A stretch of 64,000 nt of DNA, from assembly GCF_026625705.1 (NCBI RefSeq), contig NZ_CP113059.1:2666001-2730000 (forward strand), written 5' to 3'. Positions within the stretch are counted from its first letter, which is position 1. Each line of letters begins with the position of its first letter. Source of the stretch: Pedobacter sp. SL55. Lineage in GTDB: Bacteria > Bacteroidota > Bacteroidia > Sphingobacteriales > Sphingobacteriaceae. The translations under genes were made by a program, and so were the position numbers. Shown here piece by piece: positions 9,701 through 27,314 of this stretch. The notes beneath the pieces are model-generated. The model ran no database searches. It worked only from the letters and a program-made list of their open reading frames with translations, and was not told the origin of the DNA.

Positions 9701-12346
9701 TTATATTCTGCGCATACGTTGTGATTCGATTTTGTTAATGTCTAGTATTGTTATGCTATTTTCAGTTACTAAATTTTCAAGATGTCCACGGTTTAGCAAT
9801 GTTATGTCATTAGACTTTGCTAAAATTGTTGCTGATGAACTATAATCATTATTGGTTATTGTCAGCAGTTTGAATTGTTCTTTAAATCTGTCCTCGTAAT
9901 ATTTTTTTGCTGTACAAATTTCTTGTATCGCTTCATTACCAACTAAGGATTTTGTCTGTTTAACTTGTATAAGATAATTTTCTCCGTTCTTTAAAACTAC
10001 AACATCAACTCCTTTGTCATTGGAATAGGGTGTTAGATATACTTCAAAACCTTGTTTGTTATATAATGCTCCAATTGTTGCTTCAAACAAGTTTGGATTC
10101 AAGCGGTCTATGTCTGTAATTGTTTGAACCTTTGGTTTACTTTCGGTTTTTGTTCCGAAAATATTTCCAAAGAGTTCATCGGGTGTGATTTCAGCCTGTT
10201 CTGTCGGAAACAATGTATTACTTGCCAAAGATTTTTTGTTATTCAATAAGGTGTCAAGAATTTCATCAAAAGATTTCATTCTGTTACCTTCTTCATCTTT
10301 CATATCATCAGGAAAAATTGCCATTGGATAGTAAACATAAACATCTTTTTGTTGCCCAATTCTATATGCTCTGTCTGTTGCCTGTTCCTCTTTTGCAGGA
10401 TTCCAATGTCGAGTGTAATGAATGATGTGATTTGCTTTAGTAACGTTTAGTCCAACGCCTGCCGCAATAGGCGACATTATGATTACATTGAATCCATCTT
10501 CTTCTTGAAAACGGTCAATGGTTTGTTGTCGGCTTAGTTTGGATTTTCCTTCAAGTTGTTTTGTTGTAGGTGTATCTCCGTTTATAATGCTCGTGAAAAT
10601 TCCAAACGTATCGTAAACAACTTTCTGCAACATTTTTTGAGTTTCTCGCCTGTCTGTAAATAAAATTACTTTTTCATTTTTGGATTTTATGTCTGCTAAA
10701 ATTCCAACAGTAGTTTGTAATTTGGATGAGCTATTAATAAGTTCATCGCTGGTAAATTTTAAAATTTGACTTTCTAATAAATACGGATGGTCTGAAATAT
10801 CTCTAACTGCCCAAAGTGATTTCAATTTTTGATTGCTTCCATCAACACCAACTAAGTTTGGGTCATTTGCCATTTCAATTTCCTGTTTGTATCGGTCTAA
10901 TTGAATTGACGGCATCACTTTTTTGATTCTTGAATTTTGATTATCGTTTTTTTTGGGCAAATCTTTTGCGACATCACTTTTTAATCTTCTTTTGATAAAT
11001 ACTCCAATGTTGTTGCGAAGTTGTTCCGTTAATGCCTTTACATCTGTATTTTCATCGCTTAAAGGTTTTTGATATTCTTTTGCAAAATCTTTGGCATTTC
11101 CCAAAAGTCCGGGAACTGCAAAATCCATTAAACACCAAATATCAACGAGTGTATTTTCTACTGGTGTTCCCGTCATTGCAATTTTAAAATCAGATTTGAG
11201 AGCTTTACTTGCATTAGTTATTAGTGTTCCAGGTGTTTTTATTTTTTGAGCTTCGTCTAATGCAATTATGGCAAAATCAACCAAACCTAAACTAATTTGA
11301 TATGAACGTAGTGTTTCATAGTTTGTTAGAATAATTTGTTTGAATTGTAGCCGTTTTGCATCTTGCTGATTTTGAATAGGGTTATTTTCTTTTGTTAATG
11401 AAACACCGCCATATAACTTACACAATGGTAAATTCTGTGGACTGAAAAACTTCTCATATTCGTTTTCCCAATTTTCGAGCAAACTTACAGGTGCAACAAT
11501 TAAATAAGGTTTGTTATCATCACAAGTTTGGCTATGCCATTCTATGAAATACAAAAGTTGTAATGTTTTACCTAAACCCATATCATCAGCAAGCAATCCA
11601 CCTGCAAAGTTTTCTTTGAACAAGGATTGTAGCCAAGAAATCCCTTCTTTTTGATGTTCTTTTAAGCTAATGCCATTATTCAAATTTCGTATTTCATAGA
11701 AGCTATGTTTCAAATTTTCGGGCAATTCACTTCCGTTGGAAAACTCGGTTAGTTCTGCATTTTCTTTGATAATCAGAACTTCGTGGTCTGTTTTCTTCTC
11801 TTGCTTTATAGGTTTGTTTGGATTTTCAAATTGCTTTTTTGCAGTTCTAATAAATTTTTCAGCATCTTCAATTGGAATATCAGCGTTTTCCCATTCAACG
11901 GTTAGCCTTTTTTCTTTAACTGCTTTTTCTTTTTGTTCTATAAAGTCATTGAGTTTTTCAGACGTTTTGAAATAAATTTTCTTTTCTCCGTGAACTTTAT
12001 CTTTTATTACTATCCCCGGAATCCATTGTGATTTGTATGGACTTGCAAAAGGGTAGAACTTCGGGCTATAAACCCCAATTTCTATAACTCGTTCACTAAA
12101 ATACTCTAGAAAACTTTTTTTATCTGCGCCTTCAAAGTCAATTAGGTTATCATCAAAATATTGTTCTATATTTTGTGAAACTTCTTTGATCTTATTTGGG
12201 TCAGTAATTTTTCTGAGTTCTTTTATTTTTTCAAATTGAACTTTTCTCTTAGTTAAATCATCTAATCCTTCTACAAATTCTGCTTCTGTAATCTCCCCTT
12301 TTTCTTTCTGTATTTTTAGTTTTTCAATTTCCTTTTCGGAAAGTAA
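9701..12346 (-). pseudogene. zorD: zorD, 3' part: SNF2 helicase with C-terminal Mrr-like nuclease, cut off by an integrative element
   Basis: The frame is open from 12346 down to the stop at 9701 (881 codons), but its first ~207 codons contain no ATG, GTG or TTG, so it has no natural start. SNF2 motifs follow: DDMGLGKT (motif I), LDEAQK (II), AMTGTPVEN (III), and SPIAAGVGLN with QATDRAYRIGQ (V-VI). The last ~130 residues hold a restriction-endonuclease core, KGVDVVV...LIQVKQ, with Q replacing E as in Mrr enzymes. Joined to the 254-codon 5' piece at 22879-23643 it makes about 1135 residues, the size expected for ZorD, the nuclease-helicase effector of type I Zorya. Codons run in the same reading frame across the gap, with one TAA at the junction. 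Confidence 0.85.
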
Positions 12347-12351
12347 TTATT
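12344..12351. other. Left attachment core (attL) of the integrative element
   Basis: TAATTATT at 12344-12351 is repeated exactly at 22876-22883. It marks the point where zorD homology stops and integrase-side DNA begins. Outside bases GGAAAG here and TACTTTC at the right end would form the inverted arms of a recombinase target in the reconstructed empty site. Confidence 0.65.
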
Positions 12352-12441
12352 GTTTCCTATGCTTTCCAATGTTTTCTTATAGTCTGTTTATCAATTATTT
12401 AAGTTGTAAATTTTATCATTTATTTTCTTTTGTTTTCATAG

Positions 12442-12495
12442 TTTTTGTTACTTTTTTGTTAATTTTATTTTTCGGGTAACAAAAAGTAACAAAAA
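12442..12495. promoter_or_regulatory. Inverted repeat overlapping the integrase leader
   Basis: A ~20-bp arm with TTTTTGTTAC (12442-12461) pairs with a near-complement ending GTAACAAAAA (12477-12495), and the integrase ATG is at 12497. It may be integrase arm-type binding sites or an operator. It would also sequester the ribosome-binding region in RNA. Confidence 0.5.
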
Positions 12496-12496
12496 T

Positions 12497-13597
12497 ATGA
12501 GTGTTAAAATTCGTGAACGTAAATTGAAAGATGGCAGAATTAGCTTAATGCTGGACATTTATGCTAATGGTAGCCGAGAAGTTAAATCGTTAAAGATTTT
12601 TCTAGATGCTAATGCCAACACGCCTTTAAAAAAAGCACAGAACAAAGAGAAAAGAATAAAAGCTGAAAGAATCAAGGCTAAAGTAGAGATGGAGATGATA
12701 GACAATGACTATTCTCTAGCTAGCATGAAAAAATCTAACGTAATGTTTTTAGAGTAAGCATTTCAAGTCTATTAAGGAAACAAAACGATCAAGCTTTGGT
12801 AATTATGGTAATTGGGATAGTGCATATAAAGTGCTTTGTGCTTATTTTGATAATAAAGATGTTAGAATTGCTGATTTAACAGACAAGGACTTAATTGGTA
12901 TTCGAGAATTTATTAAAGGAGGATATCGTACAAAGTCTAACACTACATTATCTCAAAATGCTTCTTCATCGTATTTTAATAAGGTTAGAATTACTTTAAA
13001 TCAAGCTCATGATGAAAATATCATTAAAAACAATATTGTAAAGAAAGTAAAATCTATAAGCCCAGCAGATACTACTCGTGAGTTTTTAGTTGCAGAAGAA
13101 ATTAAAAAATTGGTAGAAACTGAATGTAAATATCCAATTATCAAAAATGCTTTCTTATTCAGTGTATATACAGGATTGAGATTTTCTGATATTATTAAGT
13201 TGAAGTGGAAAGATATTAAATATTCAGAAGGCAACTATTCGATTACTTATCAACAGCAAAAGACAAGTAAACTTTCGAAACTTTACCAATATCAAAAACA
13301 GCTTTAAAATATTTAGGCGAAGAACAAGATGGAGATGAAAAGATATTTAAAGGTTTAAAATATAGTGCGCCAAATAATTTAAAGTTATCACAATGGATTA
13401 TGCAGGCAGGTATTCTGCACAAGCATATAACCTTCCACTCTGCAAGACATAGCTATGCTACATTTATGATAACCAAAGGTGTAGATTTTTATACAGTTAG
13501 TAAAATGCTAGGTCATAAGCACATCAAAACAACAATGATTTATGGCAAAGTAATCGATAGTAAAAAAATCGAAGCTGCTAAAGTTTTTGATGAATAA
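12497..13597 (+). pseudogene. Tyrosine recombinase/integrase with two frameshifts
   Basis: Three consecutive frames (12497-12757, 12831-13307, 13400-13597, continuous after frame correction) make one ~367-residue phage-type integrase. The SAM-like core-binding part and the catalytic residues are visible: Arg in TGLRFSDI, HSARH (HxxR) and the nucleophile Tyr in KHIKTTMIYGK. One shift lies near the T-run at 12746-12750, the other near 13275-13285. All catalytic residues survive, so the breaks may be sequencing indels. It sits at the left end next to attL, the expected place for the integrase of this element. Confidence 0.85.
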
Positions 13598-13618
13598 GCT
13601 CTCAATAGACTAATTCAT

Positions 13619-15352
13619 TTAAAGGTTTTTTTCTTTGGCTAATAGGTGTTCAAAGTTCAAAAATAAGTCGTGAAAACCATTGAAATTAATACTCTTAAAC
13701 TCCTCCTCTTTGTTGAATATACATTCGGCAAATCTGTTTTTAGATAGCGCAACGCTATTGTTATGCTCGTTAAGCACTCCGCTATCTATAATAAATTCTC
13801 TATTAGACTTTAGGGAGTTAAGATTTTTTAACGTGAAAGGTAGATTTTTATGCCTACCAGAGTTTTTGTCAAACTCACTACTAAAAAATATTCTCCTTCC
13901 ATTTTTATCAGCAGTAATAATTTCTTTGTCGGTATAGTAGTGTTCAATACATATATCATGCATCTTTGCTCTATGAGAAGGTATCGGTAATGCCATCGAA
14001 AAAACTTTATTTCCCCAATCCTTATAGAATTCGTCTGTTACGGTAACATTTGCTAAAAAACTAGGCACATCTCTATCGAATAAGCATATTATCGGGTATT
14101 TGTTATTCAACTTTGATAGAGCTTCGCACATCTTTAACAATTCTCCATTAGACATTTTCGACTCGTCTTTATATTCGTGTATGTTTAAGTTTAAATCTGT
14201 AAACTGCCCTAAAGATTTAAAATATGATAAAGCGGCGGCTATATGTTTGCCATCTGATTTTCCCTCTGTTAATAATATTGGGAGGTCTACGGTGTCAATT
14301 TCACGTTCAATGATTGATAGTTTTACTGTAGGTTCTAATGCCTTTATTCTTTTGAATAAATTAACATAAACAGAATTACCTTTTCCTTTTACATGACCAA
14401 CAAAGTTGATTTTTCCAACTAGTTTTTTAAGAAATGCAGTCTCTATATTGTAGGATTGTTTTAATTCTGCTTTATGAAGTGTATAATGATGAACGGCAGA
14501 ATTGTATAGTCCATGTTTTTCCCAAGATCTTAACATGGCTCTGATTTGCCGTATATAATCTCTTTTGACATTAACAATAGAATTTACTACTAAACCTGTA
14601 ACTTCTTGTCTGTTTTCTCGATAAGCATACCGTATTTTTTCCTGATTAACTTCAAAATTGTTTGAATCAATTATAGATGTGACGTTTGGAGCTAGTGTTA
14701 GCTTATTGCTTTCAATTAAACCAATCGTTTTTGGTAATTTTTTAAGATTGGTAGAAAAAGTAATATCATCAGCGTATCTCGTGTAGTGCAATTTGTTTTC
14801 TTTACAAAGTCGAATGAAGTCGTTATCAAGCTTTCTACATATAAAGTTTGATATTATTGGTGAGGTCGGAGCTCCTTGTGGTAAAGAGCCTTTAAAGCAG
14901 CAAAGTTGAGCGAGTATCGTAGAAACTTCTTCGTTAAAATTAAAGGGGTGATTTAAAAATATACCTCTTACTCTACCAAAGTTTATTGATTGGAAAAAGT
15001 TACTTAAATCTATGTTAACGAGTATTTTCTTTTTTAGATGATATTTTGCATTAGTAATAATACTTTTATCTCTAATAAATCCGTGAACACAAGCTTTCGG
15101 TAAGTAAAGTTGTTGTAAAATAGGCTGTAGTTTTCTTTGGATTTTCCTCAGTGAATTATTTGGAGCCGTAATGACACGTTTTTTACCATTTTTCCTTTTT
15201 ATAGAAAAAGTGTGATATTTAGTTTCGTCAGGTACATGATAAAAGTAATAGGTAAGAACGTTTGGTTCTATGTTAAGAAATTGAGCTAATTCTTTGGTGG
15301 ATTTTAAATTTAGAAACGCAGCAATACGTTCTTTACTTGGTATATCGTTCAT
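13619..15352 (-). CDS. Retron reverse transcriptase fused to a TOPRIM domain (Ec67/Eco2-like)
   Basis: 577 residues. Residues about 30-320 are a retron RT: the retron-specific NAxxH motif (N101-H105), QGAPTSP (159-165), catalytic YADD (193-196) and the retron VTG motif (251-253). Residues about 355-577 hold a TOPRIM fold with LTEGKSD (E363, K365, D367) and the FDRD pair D426/D428. This architecture is that of the Ec67 (Eco2) retron, where the RT makes a branched RNA-DNA (msDNA) and the fused TOPRIM nuclease is the toxic effector in phage defence. The matching msr-msd locus lies just upstream. The ATG at 15352 is 10 nt past the a2 repeat. Confidence 0.92.
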   Translation of the reverse strand: MNDIPSKERIAAFLNLKSTKELAQFLNIEPNVLTYYFYHVPDETKYHTFSIKRKNGKKRVITAPNNSLRKIQRKLQPILQQLYLPKACVHGFIRDKSIITNAKYHLKKKILVNIDLSNFFQSINFGRVRGIFLNHPFNFNEEVSTILAQLCCFKGSLPQGAPTSPIISNFICRKLDNDFIRLCKENKLHYTRYADDITFSTNLKKLPKTIGLIESNKLTLAPNVTSIIDSNNFEVNQEKIRYAYRENRQEVTGLVVNSIVNVKRDYIRQIRAMLRSWEKHGLYNSAVHHYTLHKAELKQSYNIETAFLKKLVGKINFVGHVKGKGNSVYVNLFKRIKALEPTVKLSIIEREIDTVDLPILLTEGKSDGKHIAAALSYFKSLGQFTDLNLNIHEYKDESKMSNGELLKMCEALSKLNNKYPIICLFDRDVPSFLANVTVTDEFYKDWGNKVFSMALPIPSHRAKMHDICIEHYYTDKEIITADKNGRRIFFSSEFDKNSGRHKNLPFTLKNLNSLKSNREFIIDSGVLNEHNNSVALSKNRFAECIFNKEEEFKSINFNGFHDLFLNFEHLLAKEKNL

Positions 15353-15362
15353 GTGAGAGGAG

Positions 15363-15554
15363 TAAGATGCCCATTTAATTCAACTTATCAATATATCATT
15401 TTCTAACGAAGAGAGAATTATCGTATTCAATCATCCGTATTACAGTTTTCTATTCATAGTTATATAGGGGCTAATTAGTATATTTTAAATACTAGCATTC
15501 CTATAATTGTCGCAGGAACACAACAAAAAGTCAATTTTTTTAATGGGCATCTTA
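15363..15554 (-). ncRNA. Retron msr-msd non-coding RNA
   Basis: Immediately upstream of the RT on the same strand a perfect 13-bp inverted repeat (AATGGGCATCTTA at 15542-15554; TAAGATGCCCATT at 15363-15375) encloses ~166 nt. This matches the a1/a2 pair that defines retron ncRNAs. The enclosed RNA has hairpins TTCCT/AGGAA and TAGTAT/ATACTA in its 5' (msr-like) half and a longer A/T-rich msd-like half. The priming guanosine cannot be fixed by eye. Boundaries are inferred from the repeats. Confidence 0.8.
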
Positions 15555-15740
15555 AAACCAAGGTAGAAATTTTAAATTAAATGAACAATTGTAAATATTC
15601 AAATTGATTTAAATCGAATAAGTCATTATTATCTTACTTCGATTTTTAACTTAGCAAAATTTTCACTATCTTTATAAAAGTTGAGCTAAAGTACACGGCA
15701 ATAAACTAAATCGCAGCCTTCTACGGCAAAAAAACGTAAA

Positions 15741-15768
15741 ACAGCATTAAGCTGTGGCTCTAAAAGCC
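15741..15768. repeat. Twin small hairpins upstream of the excisionase-rep operon
   Basis: ACAGC-ATTAA-GCTGT (15741-15755) is followed directly by GGCT-CTAAA-AGCC (15756-15768). They lie ~50 bp before the excisionase ATG, in a region with no ORF (15555-15820). They could be an origin or nick region for the Rep protein or leader structures; this is inference. Confidence 0.35.
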
Positions 15769-15820
15769 AAAAAATCGCAAAAACAGATCGGAATTTTAAA
15801 AAGTTAATTCTTTTGAACAC

Positions 15821-16102
15821 ATGGTTAAAAAATATTTAACTGTAGACGAGCTTTGTGATTACCTTGGGCTTTCGAAATCAACGGTATATAAATTAAGTCA
15901 TTCGAACACGCTGCCGAAATATTGTGCAGGCGGTAAAAAAATCTTATTCAAAATTGAAGAAGTAGACGAGTATATCAACTCGCATCGAATCGCTTCGGCT
16001 AGTGAGATTGAAACTTCTATTGAAGCTGAAATTCAGTTTGGACAGCAAGCCTTCTATAATAAGGCTAAAAAAGTAAAAGAAACTTTAACCGAAACGAGAT
16101 AG
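15821..16102 (+). CDS. Excisionase-like helix-turn-helix protein
   Basis: 93 residues. An N-terminal winged HTH of the excisionase/HTH_17 type (LTVDELCDYLGLSKSTVYKL, then LFKIEEVDEYI) precedes a charged ~35-residue tail. Such proteins act as recombination directionality factors or repressors in integrative elements. It is followed 4 bp later by the rep gene, so the two form an operon. Confidence 0.85.
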   Translation: MVKKYLTVDELCDYLGLSKSTVYKLSHSNTLPKYCAGGKKILFKIEEVDEYINSHRIASASEIETSIEAEIQFGQQAFYNKAKKVKETLTETR

Positions 16103-16106
16103 GAAG

Positions 16107-17024
16107 ATGATAGATACGTTAAAGTTTAAAATTGATGGCTATAGTTTTGATTATGGTTATCTATTCGAAAAGTTAGAAGAAAAGTGTCAATTCGAGAGAA
16201 AGACTACTTACAAATACGGCGAATCTCACGTTTTTAAATACAAAAATTGGCAGTTCTGGCTTTCAAAAAAATCACTTACAGCGTCAGGTAGTTTGCATAA
16301 ACTTTATCATGGCGACAATTTAAAGCCGTTTAACTATAGTGAAGTAAAATTAGCTATAGATTCTTTATACACATTGCTCGATTTCGATTTAAGTGATGCT
16401 AAATTGATGCAAGTGGACTTAGCTGCAAATTTAGTTATGCAAAGTCAAGTGCATCTTTATTTCGATTTGCTTACCTGCCCAATTGGTTATAAGCCCATGA
16501 GCGTTAAAAATGAAACTTACTACTTCAAAAAAAACGACAAAGCAAAAGAACTTGTGTTTTACGATAAAGTTAAAGAAGTCAAAAAAAACAACAGTCAGCT
16601 TTTAGTTAAAGATCAGAACCTCTTGCGGTACGAAATTAAATTGAAGACAGATATCGTAAATATTATAGGCGATAAGCTCTTAATCAGTCTTTATGATGTT
16701 GATAAATATGCTAAGTTAGTAACAGCTTGGTATAACACTTATAGTCAAGTGCCAAAACTAACTAAACTACCTTTATCAGATGTGGTTTTGACTTCAAGAA
16801 AAGATTTTACGAACTCTTTGGTTAAAAAAGCCATATCCAGTTTAGGTGGCGTAGAGGTAATACTTAATAAAGTGAGTAAATCTAAGGTTGGTAAAACTGT
16901 TAAGTATTCGTTACGACAATATTTAAAAGAGTTGAAGGAAACAGATTACTTACGTCCTGAATTGAAAGAAGAGCTTGACTTTAAAGTTCATCAAGCTTAT
17001 TTACAGCACTTGAAGACTAGCTAA
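16107..17024 (+). CDS. Replication initiator, phage/plasmid gene II/X-like family
   Basis: 305 residues beginning MIDTLKFKIDGY. Features shared with filamentous-phage gene II/X replication proteins are the SGSLHKLYHGDN block, the MQVDLAAN strand, LVFYDKVKEV and LLRYEIKLKT. These enzymes nick DNA to start rolling-circle replication. Its presence suggests that the element can replicate as a circle after excision or borrows a phage-like lifestyle. The catalytic tyrosine cannot be assigned with certainty. It ends at a strong terminator (17033-17069). Confidence 0.75.
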   Translation: MIDTLKFKIDGYSFDYGYLFEKLEEKCQFERKTTYKYGESHVFKYKNWQFWLSKKSLTASGSLHKLYHGDNLKPFNYSEVKLAIDSLYTLLDFDLSDAKLMQVDLAANLVMQSQVHLYFDLLTCPIGYKPMSVKNETYYFKKNDKAKELVFYDKVKEVKKNNSQLLVKDQNLLRYEIKLKTDIVNIIGDKLLISLYDVDKYAKLVTAWYNTYSQVPKLTKLPLSDVVLTSRKDFTNSLVKKAISSLGGVEVILNKVSKSKVGKTVKYSLRQYLKELKETDYLRPELKEELDFKVHQAYLQHLKTS

Positions 17025-17032
17025 AATTTTTA

Positions 17033-17069
17033 AAGAATATGGCTTACTGTTTTGATAAGCCATATTCTT
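17033..17069 (+). terminator. Terminator of the excisionase-rep operon
   Basis: 14-bp perfect arms, AAGAATATGGCTTA (17033-17046) and TAAGCCATATTCTT (17056-17069), with a 9-nt loop, followed by CTCTTTTTAG. Confidence 0.75.
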
Positions 17070-17176
17070 ACTCTTTTTAGATAAAATAAGCGCAAAAAGA
17101 AAGTGCTAGACAGTTTATTTATTAATTTATAATGGATTAATCATTTACAGTTAAGGTCAGCTGATACGAGTTGTTT

Positions 17177-17413
17177 TCAGACGATGTCGTTTTTTAGTAA
17201 GTCAGCTAAATCGACTTCTAAAGCTTTCGACAGAAGAACTATTGTTGTAAGTTTTGTATTGATTTTGCCTTTTTCAATTCGATAGACTTGCGAAAGTTCT
17301 ATTTCAGCTTTATTCGCTAAATGTTCCATTGACCATTTTTTTGCTAATCTTATCTTGCGAATATTATTGCCAAATTTTTCAAGAAGCTCTTTTTCGATTT
17401 CGCTTAACGGCAT
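17177..17413 (-). CDS. XRE family transcriptional regulator
   Basis: 78 residues with a Cro/CI helix-turn-helix (KFGNNIRKIRLAKKWSMEHL, then AEIELSQVYRIEKGKI). Probable repressor of the element. It is divergent from the exported-protein gene at 17521, and the gap holds a perfect 9-bp-arm palindrome that is a good candidate operator. Confidence 0.88.
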   Translation of the reverse strand: MPLSEIEKELLEKFGNNIRKIRLAKKWSMEHLANKAEIELSQVYRIEKGKINTKLTTIVLLSKALEVDLADLLKNDIV

Positions 17414-17444
17414 AAATCAAAAGTCGAGTGAATTGTTAAAAATT

Positions 17445-17466
17445 ATTTAGGCATATGTGCCTAAAT
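17445..17466. promoter_or_regulatory. Candidate XRE operator
   Basis: ATTTAGGCA-TATG-TGCCTAAAT, a perfect palindrome with 9-bp arms, lies 32 bp upstream of the XRE start and 55 bp before the divergent gene. The length and position are typical for a dimeric HTH repressor. TAGATTTG at 17481-17488 could be the -7 box of the rightward promoter. Confidence 0.6.
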
Positions 17467-17520
17467 TTGATTTATGTTTATAGATTTGAAAAATAAATTA
17501 ACCAAAACTAAATCACGCTA

Positions 17521-18177
17521 ATGAAAAAAATATTACTACTCTTAACATTACTATTGTCTACTAAAAGCTATGCTCAAACAAGCACAGCTTTACAGAGGGC
17601 TGCTAGAGATTATTCATTTGCTGTTTATGAAAGCTTTAGGTGGGGAAGTGATGGCTTTAAGCATGTGATGATAACATCTTTGCAAAGACAAGGTTACTAT
17701 AGTGATTTAGCGATAATGAAGGGTATGGAGTCGATTGATAAGAATATCAAATTTAGACAGGCAACGTATCGAGCTTGGAGCAACGTAGCAAATGATGTAA
17801 GTATACTCGGTTTGCACTTGATGAATATTGGAATGACTGCTACTAACGCAGAGATAATGGCGAGGTATATTGTAAATTTTAACAATGCCGAAGCGAAAAA
17901 AACAGAAGATGAGCAAGTGAGTACCGTTGAAACTCAAAATGAAAAAGCAGAAATTGTTCTTCCCCATCCATCTAAAGGTGCAAGCAGTAAAAGCAAACGA
18001 TATTTAACGAAGTATACTAAAGAACAAATCATATCTTATTACGTAAGTAAATTTGGCGCAGAAAAAATGGCGGCTAATAGTTACTATATCGACTTAGATA
18101 ATGATTTAGATGTTGAAATTGTAATTAAAAAACAAGGAGAATACAACGCTATAACATATAGTTATATGGTTGATTAA
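17521..18177 (+). CDS. Exported protein of unknown function (element cargo)
   Basis: 218 residues with a signal peptide ending near residue 18-19 (STKSYAQ). The rest has helical N-terminal and mixed C-terminal parts joined by a Ser/Lys-rich linker (PSKGASSKSKR). I do not recognise the family. It follows the divergent XRE regulator and its operator and may be controlled by it. An exported product on a defence-type element is unusual and could act at the surface or in entry exclusion (inference only). Confidence 0.6.
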   Translation: MKKILLLLTLLLSTKSYAQTSTALQRAARDYSFAVYESFRWGSDGFKHVMITSLQRQGYYSDLAIMKGMESIDKNIKFRQATYRAWSNVANDVSILGLHLMNIGMTATNAEIMARYIVNFNNAEAKKTEDEQVSTVETQNEKAEIVLPHPSKGASSKSKRYLTKYTKEQIISYYVSKFGAEKMAANSYYIDLDNDLDVEIVIKKQGEYNAITYSYMVD

Positions 18178-18285
18178 TTATCGCTGTCGGTTTTGTAACA
18201 TTTAAAAAATATAAAAGTCTTTAAAAAGTAAACAGTGCTCAAAACTGATTTAGAAGCTGTAAGACTTACCCAATTAAGTAGTGTA

Positions 18286-18540
18286 ATGAAAAAACAATTA
18301 ACAGTCTTGCTATCTCTTACGTTGTCTGTAGTAGCTTGTAGCAATCCTAAGTCTGACGCTAAAGAAGTTTGTGATTGTATCCAAAAAAGCGTGATTGCTG
18401 CTAGAGATAATCCAGACGATAAGTCGGCACTAAAATGTATGGCACTTGGAACTGAAAAGGCTTTGAAGTATAAAGAAAAGCCACAAGAATTATTGGAGTT
18501 TAACATGCAGATGGATAGCTGTACAAATAATTTTAAGTAA
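18286..18540 (+). CDS. Small lipoprotein (element cargo)
   Basis: 84 residues from the ATG at 18286; the frame starts earlier at a GTG (18235), but the ATG gives a proper signal peptide, MKKQLTVLLSLTLSVVAC, with a lipobox cysteine at residue 18. The mature part has CDCIQKS and three further-spaced cysteines including one near the C-terminus, suggesting a small disulphide-stabilised helical protein. Function is unknown. It converges with the nuclease-like gene at 18552 with only 11 bp between them. Confidence 0.6.
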   Translation: MKKQLTVLLSLTLSVVACSNPKSDAKEVCDCIQKSVIAARDNPDDKSALKCMALGTEKALKYKEKPQELLEFNMQMDSCTNNFK

Positions 18541-18551
18541 TTATTAAAGGG

Positions 18552-19538
18552 TCAGATGGATAGTATTCTGTCGAGATCGATAAACTCAACTTTTTCATTA
18601 TTCCATTTGTAGTATAATATTTCTATACCAATGTCAGAAAATCTTTTGGCGACTAATTTGTTTAACTTTGTAGGAAGTACAGCTACTAATTTTACACTAT
18701 TTTTTATGGGGATACTGTAGATAAGTAATTGTCCAATTGCAGAATAAAGGCATTGCGTAGCTGAACTTGTTTTAATTTCAAACAGAATTTTGATTTGTTT
18801 CCCTTTATGAATAAATAAATCTCTGTTTTTATCATTTGCAGTTTTAAATCCTTTTGATTTTAATTTTTTATCTAAAGCATTGACAACCAAGCCATGCGTT
18901 CGTTCAATTAAGGTAGGTTCGTTTCTCTCTGTGATTGTTACACCTGAATGTTCATCTGTGTAGTTAAATTTCGTGAGATAACTAAAGCTAGGTTGTGTGC
19001 TGTCGTCTAATTGATTTTTTATACGATAAACTTCTTGTATGAAAAAAGATACTTGGTTTAAGAAAAATTGGGAGTTTAAATCTCCGATTAGACAAAATTC
19101 TGTTTCTATTTCGCCATCGATAGCTTTGATAAAATCACCTCCGAATTCATTCATGAAGAGAGTTTTTCCAACACCTTTTTTTCCTCCTCCTATTTTACCA
19201 CGGTGTAGAACTAAAATATTTCCATTACTATCTTTTGCAAATGCACCAGCGATTCTTCTATTTATGCCTTCAAGCGGAAAATTTATTTCTCCTACTAAGG
19301 AGTTATTTGCACCTTCTACTGGCTTTCCAATACCAAAGCCGTTCCAGAATCTATTTTCAAGTTGTAATATAGATACCCATATGTTCAAGTCATATGAGTA
19401 TCTGACCGTATTTTCAAAATTACCTCCAGGAAACCCAACCCAACAATCAACTTTATCAGAACAGTAGCTATCTAATTTTTCGTGAAATAGATTGTGTAAT
19501 TTTTGAATTTGTTTTGCATCCTCAATAACTTTTATCAT
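18552..19538 (-). CDS. Predicted PD-(D/E)XK nuclease-domain protein, unassigned defence candidate
   Basis: 328 residues. The N-terminal ~190 residues hold FPGGNFENTVRYS, NRFWNGFGIG and LHRGKIGGGKKGVGKTLF. The last contains a GxxxxGKT string, but no Walker B is evident and it may be unrelated to nucleotide binding. The C-terminal part has RDLFIHKGKQIKILFEIKTS followed by AIGQLLIYS, a PD-(D/E)XK pattern (D, then E-x-K, then a Q helix) seen in restriction-like nucleases. It is divergent from a large SF2 helicase with a 230-bp gap, so the two may form a unit. I cannot assign it to a named family. Confidence 0.65.
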   Translation of the reverse strand: MIKVIEDAKQIQKLHNLFHEKLDSYCSDKVDCWVGFPGGNFENTVRYSYDLNIWVSILQLENRFWNGFGIGKPVEGANNSLVGEINFPLEGINRRIAGAFAKDSNGNILVLHRGKIGGGKKGVGKTLFMNEFGGDFIKAIDGEIETEFCLIGDLNSQFFLNQVSFFIQEVYRIKNQLDDSTQPSFSYLTKFNYTDEHSGVTITERNEPTLIERTHGLVVNALDKKLKSKGFKTANDKNRDLFIHKGKQIKILFEIKTSSATQCLYSAIGQLLIYSIPIKNSVKLVAVLPTKLNKLVAKRFSDIGIEILYYKWNNEKVEFIDLDRILSI

Positions 19539-19768
19539 GGTGATTTATAAAGTTGGTTTAATTGTTTTTAAAGACTTATTTTTACGACGAAGCAGTTGAA
19601 AATGATTGTATAAATATATTCGTTTTCTTTAAATTGTCAATCAGTCAACATTTTTCTTAGGTTGTATTTTATGCTTTTTTAAGATTTTTGTTGATAATAA
19701 AATATTAAATATGAGGTGTTTATTTGTGTGGACTTATTATCTTGCATTATTAATTAATCTAAAAAGTA

Positions 19769-22700
19769 ATGCTCAAAAATTTCTCATTCAAAAAAATACA
19801 CAACGAAAAACAGAATGTAATTATTTACTACGATTCTAATGTAGTAGAAAAAGACAGTGCCATAGATATTCGGTCTTTAACTGAGATTAAAGAAACAGTG
19901 TTGGAATCTTGGAAAAACAACTTCGAATTTGTAGAAGAGGTACAGGATTCGTCAGGTAACGTTACAAAAAAAGGTCTTAGGCCCCCTCAGATAGGTGCAA
20001 TATACTCTTTGCTTTCTTATTGGACTGTTAATTCCAAACCTTCTACAATAGTATTGCCAACGGGAACAGGTAAAACAGAAACTATGTTATCTGTACTTGT
20101 TCATTCTCGAATAAATACACTTTTGGTTATCGTTCCTTCAGATTCCCTTAGAAAGCAGTTAACTGATAAGTTTAAGACTTTAGGAGTTTTAAAGGAGTTT
20201 GGTATTGTTAAAGAAGCAGCTTTTACTCCGACTGTATCTTTAGTAAAGTCATTTCCAAAATCGAAAGATGGCATAAAGAAAATATTTGAGGTGTCCAATG
20301 TGGTTGTGGCTACTATGGCTGGACTAAATACCTTAGATGAAGAGTGTTTAGCTGTTATTTCAAATAATGTTTCACATGTATTTATCGATGAAGCCCACCA
20401 TATAGCTGCCGATACGTGGAGTAGAATAAGAAGCTTTTTAGCTACTGATGCGTTGGTTACACAGTTTACGGCTACTCCGTTTAGGAATGACAAGAAAAAG
20501 GTTACAGAAGATATAATTTACAATTATCCTCTATCTAAGGCTCAAAAAGATGGATATTTTAAAGAAATAAACTTCATCGCTATAAATGAATTTGATGATT
20601 CTAAAGCTGATGAAGAGATTGCTAGGGTAGCTGTTGAACAACTCAAAACTGATTTAGATAATAAATTTGATCATTTATTAATGGCTAGAACCGATAGCAT
20701 TAATGAAGCCGAGAGATTGATACATGTTTACTCTAAATACAAAATTTATGAGCCCGTTGTAGTACACAGTCAGTTAAATACGTCATTAATAAATGAACGA
20801 ATTGAACAGTTAAAAAGTAGAAAATCTAGAATCGTGATATGCGTAGACATGTTTGGGGAAGGTTTTGACTTGCCACAACTAAAAATCGCCGCACTTCATA
20901 AAAAACATCAAAGTCTAAGTGTATTAATACAATTTACAGGTAGGTTTACTAGAAGCGGTCATAAAGATATAGGTGATGCTACTATAGTTGCTAATATCGG
21001 CAACTCTTTTATATCTAATAGTTTGGAAGAATTGTATGCGGAAGATTCAGATTGGAATAAATTATTAAGAATAAAAAGCTCGGGGCAAATAAATGATGAG
21101 ATTGATTCAAATGAATTTTTTAAGAATTTCGATAAAGGTGAGATTAATTTGTCCTTAAGTAACGTTCGGCCAAAAACAAGTACGGTAATTTATAAAACAA
21201 AGGCGGATAAATGGACACCAAGTAAATTTAGAAAAGGTTTTAAAAAAGATGCGGACGTAGCGTCTATTGTTAATAATGAAGATAAGGTTTTACTAATAGT
21301 AGAAAAGAATATAAATAAGATAGATTGGGGTGCAATTAAAGATATCGAGAATGTAAGTTATGATTTATACATTGTACATTTTGATGTCAAAAGTAAATTG
21401 CTTTACATACATGGTTCAAATAATAGTAGCCTTTTTAAAGAGTTGGCAGAATCCGTTGTTAAAACGCCAGCCTTAGTGTCTGGAGAACCTATGTTTAGAG
21501 CATTTTATAATTTGAATCGTCTTATGTTATTTAATATAGGCTTAAACAATTTGTATGCTGGACACAAAAAATATACGATGTATGCAGGTTTTGATGCAGG
21601 AAATGGTATTTCTCAAATAACTAAAGATGAAAGCGTAAAATCCAACATTTTTGGAGTTGGATTTGAAAATGGTGAGAAGGTAAGTGTTGGATGCTCTTAT
21701 AAAGGTAGGGTTTGGTCAAGACAGGCAGTATCTATAGGCGATTATATCACATGGTGTAAAAATGTGAGCAAAAAAATACTTGATACGAATATTGATCCAA
21801 ATGTAGCTTTACAAACCTCTTTAAAGAGAGAGATTATTAGCAAATTACCAAGTGAGGATGTATTAACTGTGGATTGGCCAGAACTATATTATGAGTCGCC
21901 AAATTTCTTAAATACCGTTAGTTACAATAATGTAGATTACAGTATAGATTACTTGAGTATTGAGCTATCTGAAGTTCAGTCCAAAAATTCAATTTCTTTT
22001 AAAATTGTGAATGATGATAAATTCAGTGTTGAATTTGAATTAACTGTAGATAAAAATGGTTTTAAAATTACTCAAAAAGATACTGTTAAACTTTTTAGTT
22101 ATAAAAAAGGTCAATTAGTGCCGTTAGAAGAGTTTTTCCAAAACGAACCTCCGCAAATAAGATATATTAATAGCTCATTACTTGCAGGGAACGTTTTTAT
22201 AGATGCATCAAACCATAAACCATCGCCATTTGATATTAAGTTTATAGAAGTAATAGACTGGACAGGAACAGATATAACTAAAGAATCTCAAAAAGTAGAA
22301 AAACGGATTGATTCAATTCAGAAAAAAATGATTGATAATCTTGTGAAGGAGAATAATTTAGTTGTTTTTGATGATGATGATTCTGGAGAAATAGCAGATA
22401 TTGTAATTATAAAGGATATAATAGATGCGACAGTTAATATAGAGCTTTATCATTGTAAATTCTCAAAGACAGATAGTGCAGGAAGTCGAGTTGATGACTT
22501 TTATGCAGTATGTGGGCAAACACAAAAAAGCATAAATTGGAAAATTAATCCAGAAAAATTTTTTAAACACCTGTTAAAAAGGCACGCAGATCGTTTAAGT
22601 AAACATAGTGTAGGACGAATCGAAAAGGGAGATATATCCATTTTGAATAATTTGAAAAAGAATGCGAAAAAGATGCGGCTAGATTTTAAATGTTTTATCG

Positions 22701-22819
22701 TTCAGCCAGGTCTATCGAAAAATGCAGTTAGCACGGAAATATTAACTTTGTTAGGATCTACTGAATTATATTTAAAAGAGACTTATAACATACCTTTAAT
22801 AGTGTATTCAAGTGTTTAA
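19769..22819 (+). CDS. SF2 DEAD/DEAH helicase with C-terminal nuclease-like domain
   Basis: 1016 residues. Residues ~70-400 are a restriction-type SF2 helicase: LRPPQIGAI, VLPTGTGKTE (Walker A, 95-104), FIDEAHH (205-211), QFTATPFRND (232-241), VDMFGEGFDLPQ and IQFTGRFTRSG (motif VI). Near residue ~870-930, EIADIVII, IELYHCKFS and CGQTQKS look like a PD-(D/E)XK-type core (D...E-x-x-x-K and a downstream Q helix). The middle ~400 residues have no recognisable domain. It is a probable defence translocase-nuclease, the last gene before attR, and partner candidate for the divergent 18552-19538 gene. Confidence 0.8.
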   Translation: MLKNFSFKKIHNEKQNVIIYYDSNVVEKDSAIDIRSLTEIKETVLESWKNNFEFVEEVQDSSGNVTKKGLRPPQIGAIYSLLSYWTVNSKPSTIVLPTGTGKTETMLSVLVHSRINTLLVIVPSDSLRKQLTDKFKTLGVLKEFGIVKEAAFTPTVSLVKSFPKSKDGIKKIFEVSNVVVATMAGLNTLDEECLAVISNNVSHVFIDEAHHIAADTWSRIRSFLATDALVTQFTATPFRNDKKKVTEDIIYNYPLSKAQKDGYFKEINFIAINEFDDSKADEEIARVAVEQLKTDLDNKFDHLLMARTDSINEAERLIHVYSKYKIYEPVVVHSQLNTSLINERIEQLKSRKSRIVICVDMFGEGFDLPQLKIAALHKKHQSLSVLIQFTGRFTRSGHKDIGDATIVANIGNSFISNSLEELYAEDSDWNKLLRIKSSGQINDEIDSNEFFKNFDKGEINLSLSNVRPKTSTVIYKTKADKWTPSKFRKGFKKDADVASIVNNEDKVLLIVEKNINKIDWGAIKDIENVSYDLYIVHFDVKSKLLYIHGSNNSSLFKELAESVVKTPALVSGEPMFRAFYNLNRLMLFNIGLNNLYAGHKKYTMYAGFDAGNGISQITKDESVKSNIFGVGFENGEKVSVGCSYKGRVWSRQAVSIGDYITWCKNVSKKILDTNIDPNVALQTSLKREIISKLPSEDVLTVDWPELYYESPNFLNTVSYNNVDYSIDYLSIELSEVQSKNSISFKIVNDDKFSVEFELTVDKNGFKITQKDTVKLFSYKKGQLVPLEEFFQNEPPQIRYINSSLLAGNVFIDASNHKPSPFDIKFIEVIDWTGTDITKESQKVEKRIDSIQKKMIDNLVKENNLVVFDDDDSGEIADIVIIKDIIDATVNIELYHCKFSKTDSAGSRVDDFYAVCGQTQKSINWKINPEKFFKHLLKRHADRLSKHSVGRIEKGDISILNNLKKNAKKMRLDFKCFIVQPGLSKNAVSTEILTLLGSTELYLKETYNIPLIVYSSV

Positions 22820-22875
22820 AATGTTGATTTTGTTTCTTTTTTGTTACTTATTGATGTTAACTATTTGATAATCAT

Positions 22876-22883
22876 TAATTATT
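22876..22883. other. Right attachment core (attR) of the integrative element
   Basis: A second copy of TAATTATT, at the exact point where the zorD 5' part loses its continuation. The TAA inside this core (minus strand, 22879-22881) ends the zorD 5' frame. Confidence 0.65.
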
Positions 22884-23643
22884 TACTTTCTGTATCGGAA
22901 TATATAAAAACTCTTGTAGTTTTTCCTTGCTCTTCGCTTACAGCATAAAATTCTTTTACTTTATTCTTAACTAAATCAAAATTATTTATAAATGAATGTG
23001 GATTAGATATAGGAATTTGAGGAAATACTTCTAGAATTCCATCCTTAAAATCAATATCTATTTTTATCTTTTCAGGAATAAATAATTCCTGATTGCTTAG
23101 GAATTGTTCCAAAGTCAATCCGCTTTCTTTGGATAGCGTTTTTAACTCGGATAATTTTTTTAGATTGGTTACATTTCCTTTTTCAATTTCCGGCAAACTG
23201 TTAAATTCTTCTATTGCTTCACAAAGCAAATATTGGTTTTCTGATAGTAAGTATTCAGTTTCTTCAATTTTAATTATTGCACCGTTTCGACTTACTTTAA
23301 GCCTTGTTCCATTGGGTGCAAAATCATAAAATCCATACTTGAACTTAAAGGAATTATGTTTTAACGTTCCATCTGATTCAACTAAAATTTCATACTGATA
23401 ACTGTTTGGCAATTCTAATATTTGCTTATCAATGTCGCTTAGTTTTAAAATATCAATGTTTTCAACTTCGCAAGAGTTTTCTGTATAGCCTGCTAATCCA
23501 TTATCGCGTAATTCGCTTAAAATTGCAAGTTGTGATAAAAATTCTGATTGCAATTCTGCCCAATTTGATACAGATATTTTTTTTCCATAACTATCAAGGA
23601 AATAGAATGAGAACTTTTTATTGTTATGTGTATATCTAAACAT
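22879..23643 (-). pseudogene. zorD: zorD, 5' part, truncated at the element's right end
   Basis: 254 codons, starting at 23643 and overlapping the end of zorC by 8 bp, as in a coupled operon. It carries no helicase motif. It corresponds to the N-terminal region that precedes the SNF2 domain in ZorD. It terminates at a TAA within the attachment core, immediately before element DNA. The continuation, without a start codon and in a matching frame, is at 9701-12346. A truncated 254-aa product could still be made. Confidence 0.75.
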
Positions 23644-25062
23644 TTATTCCTGCAATATTTTTAAACCAATATTCAAACACTTGTTCCCAACTTAAATCTC
23701 CATCATTATGGGTTAAGCGACCTTCTCTGTTGGTGTTGTTAATACTATATCCTGAACGGTAAACAAGCATTGGCATATTACCATCTCTTAATTCATCTAC
23801 ACTATTTAATTTATAATCTAAGTTTGGTTTAGATGTGCCGTTTATCTTATACGCATAAAAAGCATAACCAGCATCGCTAAACTCAATTAGCATATATTCT
23901 CCTATATAAAGAATGAAAGCGGAAACATCTTTTGTACTGTAAACGGTATTAAATCTTGCATCTAAATATTCAGTTATTCTATCATTTTGTTGAAGAATCC
24001 GTTTAGTTCTATTTTGACCATAAACCTTAAAGGAAACTCTATTTTTTGAAGCAATTTTAAGCCAGAATTTTTTCCTCCTCTCATCATTCAGACATACTCT
24101 AAAGAAAGTATCAATGAATTGTTTTGCAATCCATTCATCGAGAATATTTCTCGCTTCAATAATTTCTCTGCGTTCCACTTCTGTTGCATTGTCAAACGCC
24201 GTCCAATTGGAAACATTGCTTGGGTCGCCTATTTGAGTAAAGGCAGTCTTTTTTACACTGTCTTGTAGGCTCGAAAATTCGGGTTTATTGGCTTGAATAA
24301 TTATTTTGCTGATTAATCTTTTGCTTGTGATTGAACTATTATGTTTTAATAAGACTTCATTCAGATTGTCGATTTCTGTTGATATTTTATTCTTGTTCCT
24401 TTCGTAATAGGTTACAATAACTTTAGAGAAGTAGGCATAATCAAACCACGATTCAGGAACACCTAATATTTTAGTAGCTTCTTGAATTGGTTTGTTAAGT
24501 TTTGCGATAGTGTCGCCCAAAATTAAATCCCCATTTTTGGTGTTGAAATATCGCTTATTGTTTTTGAAAGAAATTAATGTGCTTCGATTGCCTGAATAAT
24601 TGTCTAATTTTTGGCTGGTAAAATGCTCTAATTGCTCTAATGATTTCGGATATTTTGTTTCCCAATTCTTCAAAAAGCAATCTATCAACCCAACTAAAAA
24701 TGAATCACGCCAGTTTGATTCTAATAAAGTCAAAGCATATTTCAACTCATTTTCATTGCTAAAAATGGAACTTAAATTTTGTTCTGAATAATTTAAGGAA
24801 TAGGTAAGCGTTCTTAATTCTCTCCGTTCAAAACTTGTGTCAATAGTATTGATAGATTTTTTAAATTTTCTAAAAACTTGTGGAATAAGATTGTTTCCTG
24901 AAAACGAAAAAGAATTTGCCCCAACATCCTCTGTTATTTTTTGAAGTTTGTCAATTCTATGTTCATTCAATGATGTAAGCTTAATTGGAATAATCTTTTG
25001 TGCCGACTGCTGAAATGCAGTCGGTAAAAATGAAATTGTAATATGTCCTGGGTTGTCGGCAT
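23636..25062 (-). CDS. zorC: Zorya protein ZorC (one apparent frameshift near its start)
   Basis: The frame from a TTG at 24970 reads 444 residues, but it is open further upstream. The natural ATG is at 25062, overlapping the zorA end region. Starting there gives MPTTQDILQFHF, and one extra A in the plus-strand A-run at 25026-25030 joins it to LPTAFQQSAQKI and the rest, ~475 residues. The C-terminal half has FSDAGYAFYAYKING, like the EH-signature region known in ZorC, the cytoplasmic partner of type I Zorya. The following zorD fragment overlaps by 8 bp. The frameshift is probably a sequencing indel. Confidence 0.75.
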
Positions 25063-25063
25063 A

Positions 25064-26593
25064 TTAGTTTCTTCGTCCGTTTAATTTACTAAGTTGTTCA
25101 GTTAGTTCTTCCAAAATGTCTTCTTGTTTTGATGAAGCTCCTGCAAGTGATTCCGCTGTTTTGGTTAAAGCATCGGTGTATTTGCCTAAATAAGTTTCAA
25201 GACTCTCTCTTACAGTTGTTTGATAACCTTTTAGTCCTGTTTCAAGGTCGGCAAATACTTTTGACAATCCTTTTTCAATGATTTCAAATTTCTGTGCATA
25301 ATCGGCAGAAACGCTTTTTGCAGTTTCTAATGATTTTTGAATTTCAGTGATTGTATTTGAATTGTTTTGTAAGAACTGATTCGAATGTTTTGAAAATTCA
25401 TTTTGCGATTCTCCAAATCTGCTTGATGATGTATTGATTTCCTGCGATACGTTTCTAAAAACAGAAATAACTTTTTCCAATTCTGTTTGAGCTTGATTGA
25501 GTTTTGAAATGCTACCATTCACTTCGGTTGAAAGTCCGTTCATTTTTTCAATGCTTGTATTAAAAGCACTCAAAAGATTTTCGGAAACTTGTAGGTTTTT
25601 CGATTGTTCATTAAGTAAAGTTTGTTGTCCTGATTGTAAATCTCCGACTTTACTTCGTAGAATTTCGCTCATATCCTCAACCTGTTTTCTCATTTGGTTG
25701 GTTGATTCTTCCGATTGAGAAAGTGTTTGTTTTGAAATTTGCTGAACCACTTCTTGTAAACCTCTGAAATTTTCATTTAGATTATCGGTCATATTTTGCA
25801 ATTTCAAAGGGAAGTCCGTTAATGAACCACCTGCTTGACCAAGTAAACCTGCTAATCTTTCCATTTCATTTTTAGTATCGCCACTCATTGAAGTTTTAAA
25901 TTCTGCAATCATTTTACCCATTGATTCCTGTAATTCCTTCACAATATTTTGAGTCATATCGGTTGCAGGGTCTTTCAGCTTGTTACCTAAACTCTCAATT
26001 TCGGCTTTAACTAATTTTAATTCTTCTACAACAGCACCTGTTGGATTATTGAAAACTTCTTCAAAACCTGCTGAAATTGTTAAAGCTAAATCGGAGGAAA
26101 ATGTTTGTAAGGATGTTGATTGCTTTTGAGATTCCTTATAAATATCTCGAAACACATTGCCGGGTTTAATTGTGTTTCCGTTTTCATCAGTCGAAGTAAA
26201 ATCGTTTCTTAGTTCTTTAATTGCTTCAATTAAATTATTGATTGCTAGTGTCTCTTCGCTTAAAACACCTTCTTCCAGTTTTTTCTTTTTGATGTTTGTC
26301 CAAAAAGAAAAACCGACCAATAAAGCAACTCCAAAAATTGATACAAGGAAAGCGGTCTTCAACCCATTCATCAATTCTGGAATACTTTTTTCAATATTGT
26401 TGCTGTCAAAATTCCACAAACCAATTGCGATACCTAAAAACGTAAATAATATTCCAAGAGTAGGGAATAAGTGAGGTATAAAATCAAACAAATGTTCATT
26501 GGTATTTTCCTTTGTGCGCTTATTAATATAGAAAGCTGCCCAAATAGCAACTATGAGGATTATTCCAATTCCAAATATTATTTCAAAACTCAT
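25064..26593 (-). CDS. zorA: Zorya protein ZorA (MotA/ExbB-like motor with long cytoplasmic tail)
   Basis: 509 residues. Three transmembrane helices lie at about 3-22, 43-60 and 78-98, with ExbB/MotA-like GLKTAFLVSIFGVALLVG. Residues ~150-500 are a long, polar, heptad-rich tail that should form an extended intracellular coiled coil, the hallmark of ZorA. Five ZorA surround two ZorB to make a proton-driven motor that senses phage entry and signals to ZorC/ZorD through the tail. Its ATG shares one base with the zorB stop (TAATG), and zorC follows within 1 bp. Confidence 0.88.
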   Translation of the reverse strand: MSFEIIFGIGIILIVAIWAAFYINKRTKENTNEHLFDFIPHLFPTLGILFTFLGIAIGLWNFDSNNIEKSIPELMNGLKTAFLVSIFGVALLVGFSFWTNIKKKKLEEGVLSEETLAINNLIEAIKELRNDFTSTDENGNTIKPGNVFRDIYKESQKQSTSLQTFSSDLALTISAGFEEVFNNPTGAVVEELKLVKAEIESLGNKLKDPATDMTQNIVKELQESMGKMIAEFKTSMSGDTKNEMERLAGLLGQAGGSLTDFPLKLQNMTDNLNENFRGLQEVVQQISKQTLSQSEESTNQMRKQVEDMSEILRSKVGDLQSGQQTLLNEQSKNLQVSENLLSAFNTSIEKMNGLSTEVNGSISKLNQAQTELEKVISVFRNVSQEINTSSSRFGESQNEFSKHSNQFLQNNSNTITEIQKSLETAKSVSADYAQKFEIIEKGLSKVFADLETGLKGYQTTVRESLETYLGKYTDALTKTAESLAGASSKQEDILEELTEQLSKLNGRRN

Positions 26594-27314
26594 TATTCGT
26601 TTATGTTTTTAAGTGCTTCGTTTATGATTGCTTCACTTGTGGTTACTATTCTAAATTCAACTCTTCTTGATTTACCATTATCAATTGGTTGTTTACTGTC
26701 GAAGGAAATTTTATAATCTTTATCAACGGTACGACCATAAGAAAGTCCATTGGCTGTAAGCCAATATTGCAGTCTTTCTTTTTCGGCCGGCTGCAAGTTG
26801 ATAAAATAGTTTTGAGAACGTAAAAAACCCAAAACATTTCTTGCCCTGTCTTGCGACAGCTTCATGTTATCAATATAAGGGTCTCCAGACAGTTTAATAG
26901 GTTTACTGTCTGTGTGTCCCTCAATTCGAATTTCAGCAATTTTATCGTGATATTTTTTTTGCAACACAACATGAAGGTATTTTGGAAGAAAGTCGCTCAA
27001 GATAGTTCGAAAGTGGGTAGTGATATCGGCGCTGCCTTCGCTAAAAAAAGCACTTGTGGATTTGTAAATTTTATTGATAAGTCATTGTCAAGCTTCAAAT
27101 TCCATTTGGCGAAGTCATTTTTAAAAGCTTTGTTAAGTTCATTGTATAGGGAGACTTTTGACTCTTCATAGTCTTTAAATATTTGATTCTGTTCTTTCTG
27201 CCTTTTTTCTACTAGTGCCATATAGGAAATTGACATAAATAGAAAAATTACCATTAAGACCGTCATAAGGTCTGCTAGAGGAATCCAATGACTTTCTTTT
27301 TTTGTTCCTGACAT
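26593..27314 (-). CDS. zorB: Zorya protein ZorB (MotB/OmpA-like), frameshifted in this sequence
   Basis: Two overlapping frames (26997-27314 and 26593-27000) form one ~240-residue protein. N-terminus: single transmembrane helix PLADLMTVLMVIFLFMS with the proton-path Asp at residue 15, as in MotB. C-terminus: OmpA-like peptidoglycan-binding domain with IEGHTDSKP and DRARNVLGFL. The break is in a run of seven A (plus strand, about 27042-27048). Five or eight bases would restore VLFSEGSADI or similar, the expected OmpA strand. It is first in the operon, before zorA. Confidence 0.82.

Follow-up and report, generated by a model that had tools for sequence, protein, structure and literature searches.

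Why should the gene of one anti-phage defence system come to hold a whole mobile element carrying another? The question is raised by a locus of Pedobacter sp. SL55, in which zorD, the last gene of a type I Zorya operon, is interrupted by an integrative element of about 10.6 kb that has a retron among its cargo. We analysed a stretch of 64,000 nucleotides around this locus (hereafter the window; G000:C1:2666001-2730000), taken from a genome of one contig of 4.44 Mb with a completeness of 98.78%. An earlier note on this DNA had left it open whether the insertion is a switch, a hostile takeover or an accident of integration. We conclude with good confidence that it is an accident and not a switch: the element, whose relatives usually occupy the end of mnmE, most likely went off-target into zorD and is probably trapped there. 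The features on which the argument rests are collected in Table 1.

Table 1. Features of the Zorya operon and of the element within it (window coordinates; aa, amino acids; ORF, open reading frame).
Feature	Position	Strand	Basis or state
zorB	26593..27314	-	frame broken in T run at ~27043-27049; split into two ORFs of differing frame, each a PADLOC ZorB match
zorA	25064..26593	-	whole, 509 aa; PADLOC ZorA 1.2e-30
zorC (EH_Signature)	23636..25062	-	frame break near codon 12; PADLOC ZorC1 6.6e-21; Pfam EH_Signature 1.5e-16
zorD 5' piece (host-derived codons 1 to ~248, up to the shared core)	22901..23643	-	PADLOC ZorD profile; alignment with intact ZorD
Shared core TCGGAA, zorD 5'-piece junction	22895..22900		codon phase equal to that of the other copy
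Integrative element body	12342..22894		10,559 bp with one core copy; ZorD alignment and shared core
Shared core TCGGAA, zorD 3'-piece junction	12336..12341		plus-strand sequence
zorD 3' piece (linker, SNF2 helicase, Mrr nuclease)	9701..12341	-	PADLOC ZorD; Pfam SNF2-rel_dom, Helicase_C, Mrr_cat
Tyrosine integrase pseudogene	12498..13597	+	frame breaks at ~12755-12758 and 13266-13270; Pfam Phage_integrase
Retron reverse transcriptase-Toprim fusion (type I-C model)	13619..15352	-	PADLOC RT-Toprim_I-C 4.2e-196; NCBIfam retron Ec67 family 3.3e-109 (below cut-off)
Probable retron msr-msd RNA	15363..15554	-	13-bp closing helix, taken as a1/a2
Excisionase-type helix-turn-helix protein	15821..16102	+	NCBIfam excise 8.8e-15; Pfam HTH_17
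Replication-initiation-like protein (Rep)	16107..17024	+	Pfam Phage_CRI 1.5e-8; 48% identical to that of the sister element
328-aa cargo protein	18552..19538	-	without family match
1,016-aa superfamily 2 helicase, candidate defence cargo	19769..22819	+	Pfam ResIII 9.3e-21, Helicase_C

That the two pieces are halves of one gene, split by an element of about the 10.5 kb previously proposed, is borne out by their matches to consecutive stretches of a single ZorD profile (PADLOC PDLC00631), positions 2-241 being covered by 22879-23643 on the minus strand (E 4.6e-57) and positions 245-1070 by 9701-12346 on the same strand (E 0). Together they thus span profile positions 2-1070 and hold the SNF2 helicase and the Mrr-like nuclease expected of ZorD. 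A protein search with residues 1-200 of the 3' piece returned 433 proteins (113 of the best 120 listed being at least 1,080 aa long), and its top four, P0001-P0004, are intact ZorDs of 1,126-1,128 aa that align across both pieces and place the junction to within a few bases: the 5' piece leaves off its zorD sequence after ...RVFIYS, and the 3' piece takes it up at EKEIEKL. Here lie two copies of TCGGAA, 10,559 bp apart and in identical codon phase, which replace the junctions at 12343 and 22884 given in the earlier note; the core was derived from this protein alignment; the repeat search of the element used a minimum of 12 bases and was unable to show a 6-bp core. Rejoined, zorD measures 249 + 878 = 1,127 codons and is thus as long as P0001 and P0003, against the previous sum of about 1,135; the last five codons (DTESK) of the 254-codon 5' ORF are element DNA, as are roughly two at the start of the 881. 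The 3' part does resume in the same frame, and both pieces are open throughout.

Two other placements of the junction were discarded on the evidence of P0001-P0004. Some 33 codons at the start of the 3' piece had looked like element DNA, being absent from the intact L008-L010 and altogether from seven shorter aligned relatives (L008-L010, P0009, P0018, P0050 and P0074, P0050 being probably the gene of L008), but they are present in all four proteins; and an 8-bp match near both junctions, AATAATTA, was dropped as a core, since the four proteins put the junction elsewhere. All five close zorD relatives, in L008-L010 (the three hits at E ≤ 1e-100 among 399 other genomes) and in G696 and G572 (among 394 other genomes), are open over 1,088-1,099 aa. 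Eleven weaker matches (at most 41% identity, covering chiefly the helicase and including a second one in G572) were excluded from this count.

What kind of site does the element itself carry? When its ends are rejoined they read, on the plus strand, TTACTTTC-TGTATCG-GAAAGTAA, that is, perfect inverted 8-bp arms around 7 bp; as a control, 1,000 joins of element DNA made at random gave an equally long inverted repeat somewhere in the join in 20 cases. The rejoined site holds TTC TGT ATC GGA AAG TAA, which encodes FCIGK-stop, the end of MnmE as in locus L052, and it contains TTCTGTATCGGAAAGTAATT, identical to L052 3188-3207 and 14106-14125. This locus, from a genome of the same genus (G150), bears a sister element directly behind mnmE, flanked by perfect 20-bp copies of TTCTGTATCGGAAAGTAATT; the sister's outer end, TTACTTTCTGTATCGGAAAGTAA, is the same as the 23-bp site of the present element at 23 of 23 positions. 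The two elements share 70% identity in the integrase, 62% in the excisionase-type helix-turn-helix protein, 48% in Rep and 54% in a small protein. They differ in that the sister sits at mnmE with an integrase gene open at 365 aa, whereas the present element lies in zorD with a broken one, and in cargo: that of the sister (L052:3188-14125) matches models of a cyclic-oligonucleotide-based anti-phage signalling system (CBASS; cyclase, E2 and SAVED-HNH effector) where the present element has a retron, which suggests that mnmE is a dock for defence cargo.

A 25-bp form of the end signature with one base left free was found in 12 stretches of genome contigs (L143-L154), mostly from Bacteroidota and one from Rheinheimera, so this type of attachment is not confined to Pedobacter. 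In none of the 12 does mnmE lead into the signature: the 50 codons before it contain stops in 11, and in the twelfth (L147) they are open but without an mnmE match. Within these stretches, mnmE occurs in L153 alone, which unites mnmE, an adjacent integrase and the end signature inside 8 kb; L145 is the one other stretch with an integrase. The stretches fit outer ends of elements, most being too short to show a whole one.

The integrases of relatives tell where such elements reside. Searching 201 family genomes with a query from the middle of the integrase turned up 47 matches beyond the host itself (E ≤ 1e-12), and loci were obtained for 29 of them, mostly the best-scoring. The 3' end of mnmE lies upstream of the integrase within the 3-kb locus in 24 of these and, in four of the remaining five, for which 20 kb each was considered, 1.1-1.4 kb before it; the integrase therefore stands just 3' of mnmE in 28 of the 29. 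By its integrase, although the gene is broken, and by its attachment site the present element belongs with this family; by location it does not, since it sits in zorD and the host mnmE lies elsewhere without an integrase. Because the attachment sequence is of the mnmE type and 28 of 29 examined integrase loci are at mnmE, zorD is most likely a secondary, off-target site. Beside the integrase of a relative (locus L056), ORFs resembling a type I restriction set were noted by ORF reading, with no model match.

Secondary sites and docking at trmE are already in print. Salmonella genomic island 1 (SGI1) and other islands integrate at the 3' end of trmE/mnmE (thdF) (PMC8409611). SGI1 uses an 18-bp attachment sequence with 8-bp inverted repeats around a 7-bp overlap and has a documented secondary site; when thdF is deleted it goes in between sodB and purR, and in some wild-type recipients both places are occupied (PMC2297512). 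The likeness, drawn by attachment gene and site layout only, extends to use of the trmE 3' end, the 8-bp repeats with their 7-bp overlap and the secondary site; SGI1 is a 42.4-kb element with resistance genes (PMC3285670), whereas the present one measures 10.6 kb and carries anti-phage cargo. The SGI1 precedent supports zorD as a secondary site, which agrees with the element in the last three overlap bases and the bases after them (TCGGAA). Integrases of the CTnBST/CTnDOT type from Bacteroides, likened by description, are similar in having a 7-bp overlap, but those elements are conjugative transposons, unlike the one studied here.

Was zorD instead the intended target? A family selected to insert into rival defence genes would be expected to carry defence cargo and to lie inside a defence effector gene, as this element does. 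Yet its attachment site is the 3' end of mnmE, the zorD junction sequence is absent from the zorD DNA of the three relatives compared (L008-L010, the DNA of P0001-P0004 being outside the comparison), and just one such insertion was seen. We regard such a takeover as very improbable, and targeting of zorD as such was rejected on these grounds.

The site that the element would normally use is present in the host. The host mnmE (G000:C1:144133-145491) has an unbroken frame of 452 codons, and no integrase of the element family lies beside it; an IS21-like gene pair, so named from ORF reading, lies downstream. The end of this gene differs from the element site at 5 of 18 positions. None of the 31 mnmE ends in the comparison (the host's and those of 30 loci, out of 56 genomes that gave a match) has more mismatches, and four others have as many; at least 7 of the 30 loci have an integrase-like match nearby, and those ends may derive from elements. 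Behind the host mnmE, 120 bp (G000:C1:144013-144132, L065) resemble the sequence behind mnmE in L056 and L028, where an element sits, with a score of 39, which the best of 630 shuffles equals; no matches to ORFs of L056 lie nearby, and a remnant or scar of an earlier element at this mnmE end is suggestive only.

Several observations weigh against an off-target integration of this kind. (i) Compared with the 23-bp site of the element, the zorD site agrees at 15 of 23 positions and the host mnmE end at 14 of 23, and within the 7-bp overlap it is mnmE that is favoured (5/7, against 4/7 for zorD). (ii) A score of at least 15 was reached at 23 of 127,954 places in the window (19 exactly 15 and four higher, two of the latter being the real junctions); with so many equally scoring places, resemblance alone would not single out the zorD site, and the choice of zorD over mnmE is unexplained. 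(iii) One integrase locus, L139, has no mnmE in 20 kb, and the figure of 28 of 29 leaves out 18 further integrase matches of the 47. (iv) No excised or empty-site DNA of the strain was seen, and the frame breaks described below could be local sequencing errors, as at runs of T. Even so, we hold to the off-target reading; the mnmE-type site, the position of the relatives' integrases and the poor zorD match favour accident over both switch and takeover.

Is the element still able to leave? Its integrase gene falls into three segments that alternate in frame, and each segment is 69-71% identical to the intact integrase (365 aa) of the sister. Among the relatives, the open frame at the integrase match is 299-416 aa in 46 of the 47 matches and 217 aa in the last. 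The host genome has no other integrase match at E ≤ 1e-12.

Some prophages act as switches at competence or sporulation genes, and the earlier note had likewise envisaged a reversible inactivation, in which excision would restore, or nearly restore, an in-frame zorD and turn Zorya on. On paper the first half stands, for the core has the same codon phase on both sides, so that zorD would again be open after a clean excision; the element also has an excisionase-type gene. The integrase, however, has two frame breaks and, at E ≤ 1e-12, no other match in the genome, excision alone would leave zorB and zorC broken, and zorD is no repeated target, with five close relatives open and the examined integrases at mnmE but for one. 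A working switch is thus unlikely, and we give it little credence. Control conditional on a related integrase from another element, which would excise this one in trans, restore an open zorD and let the two defence sets alternate, seems to us scarcely probable.

The remainder of the operon, on whose lesions the earlier note was silent, bears on the same point. Its reading as a type I Zorya with zorB, zorA and zorC leading into a zorD 5' fragment is borne out by PADLOC and Pfam matches: all four genes are recognised, on the minus strand, in the order zorB-zorA-zorC-zorD also found in a relative (L006). The MotA-like ZorA and MotB-like ZorB components match best the type II ZorA and ZorB models, so the type I call is made because ZorC and ZorD match type I. 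Only zorA is whole, with 92% identity to the L006 protein over 509 aa. In zorB the frame shifts at a run of seven T (27043-27049), its two pieces matching PADLOC ZorB at 5.5e-38 and 5e-33, and the L006 gene is whole at 238 aa; the frame break in zorC was located at a run of five T (25026-25030). With the insertion in zorD this makes three separate lesions, and the Zorya here is a pseudo-operon; the zorB and zorC breaks may have preceded or followed the insertion. Since a type I Zorya put to the test lost its protection on deletion of any one component (PMC11890865), the present operon is very likely inactive.

Might the 3' piece of zorD nonetheless serve on its own? As noted earlier, it lacks a start codon for its first ~207 codons, the first in-frame ATG, GTG or TTG being a TTG after codon 207. 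From this TTG an ORF (9701-11725), open throughout, would give a 674-aa helicase-nuclease holding the SNF2 and Mrr domains, but the piece has no ATG or GTG until codon 255, which already lies within the helicase domain. As zorB and zorC are broken and the tested system tolerates the loss of no component (PMC11890865), residual function from such an internal start appears quite improbable.

The breaks in the integrase, zorB and zorC could also be errors of assembly, in which case the element would be mobile and zorD the only broken gene. This is what the T runs at the zorB and zorC breaks might suggest, as might the five consecutive T that lie a few bases ahead of the first break in the integrase, and the open frames of both zorD pieces. 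The second integrase break, however, lies outside any homopolymer, and completeness is high. In ten 20-kb samples, moreover, the host has 170 ORFs of at least 80 aa, with a mean of 346 aa, against 174 with a mean of 336 aa in a congener (G173), and a general frameshift problem is therefore unlikely. We consider errors at all three genes unlikely, though they deserve some weight.

We favour the following course of events for the off-target insertion. An element of a Bacteroidota family, carrying anti-phage cargo and usually found at the last codons of mnmE, would have entered a Pedobacter host, where its integrase may have brought the attachment site of the element together with a stretch of zorD agreeing at one end of the 7-bp overlap and in the neighbouring bases (TCGGAA). 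Recombination at this secondary site would have split zorD and so inactivated Zorya. The integrase gene may have decayed later, or may already have needed help in trans; either way the element is probably trapped.

As for the element's contents, the region upstream of the retron reverse transcriptase (15353-15620, minus strand) folds at -53.4 kcal/mol (z -3.68; none of 200 shuffles did as well), with no Rfam match for the retron RNA at E ≤ 1; no relatives of the reverse transcriptase were confirmed in genome or viral contigs by scans that reach close relatives only. The 328-aa protein matched nothing in Pfam or PADLOC at 0.01, in NCBIfam at 0.1 or among PDB sequences at 1. The large helicase has matches at E ≤ 1e-50 in 9 of 151 family genomes, host included, and relatives with 38-40% identity over most of its length in 4 of 150 other family genomes; together with the 328-aa protein it forms a divergent pair (18552-22819) that is a candidate uncharacterised defence pair. 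The element is complete at one genomic place; elsewhere in the genome two fragments of about 50 and 35 bp match it, and it has no near match among plasmids. Adjoining the Zorya operon, a protein encoded at 8379-9383 on the minus strand strongly matches the PADLOC candidate defence model PDC-S02 (6.5e-129).

Among the entries that word searches of the open-licence literature listed, we found neither a family of elements in Bacteroidota that dock at mnmE with anti-phage cargo of various kinds nor a Zorya operon broken by insertion or an interrupted defence island. If our reading is correct, a mobile defence element destroyed a resident defence system by accident, and such a cost can escape inventories of defence systems, since the pieces of zorA, zorB, zorC and zorD still score against defence models. 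It would also point to a Bacteroidota family that docks at the mnmE end with differing anti-phage cargo (retron, CBASS and, by ORF reading, a type I restriction set), which would make the end of mnmE a defined place in which to look for defence genes.

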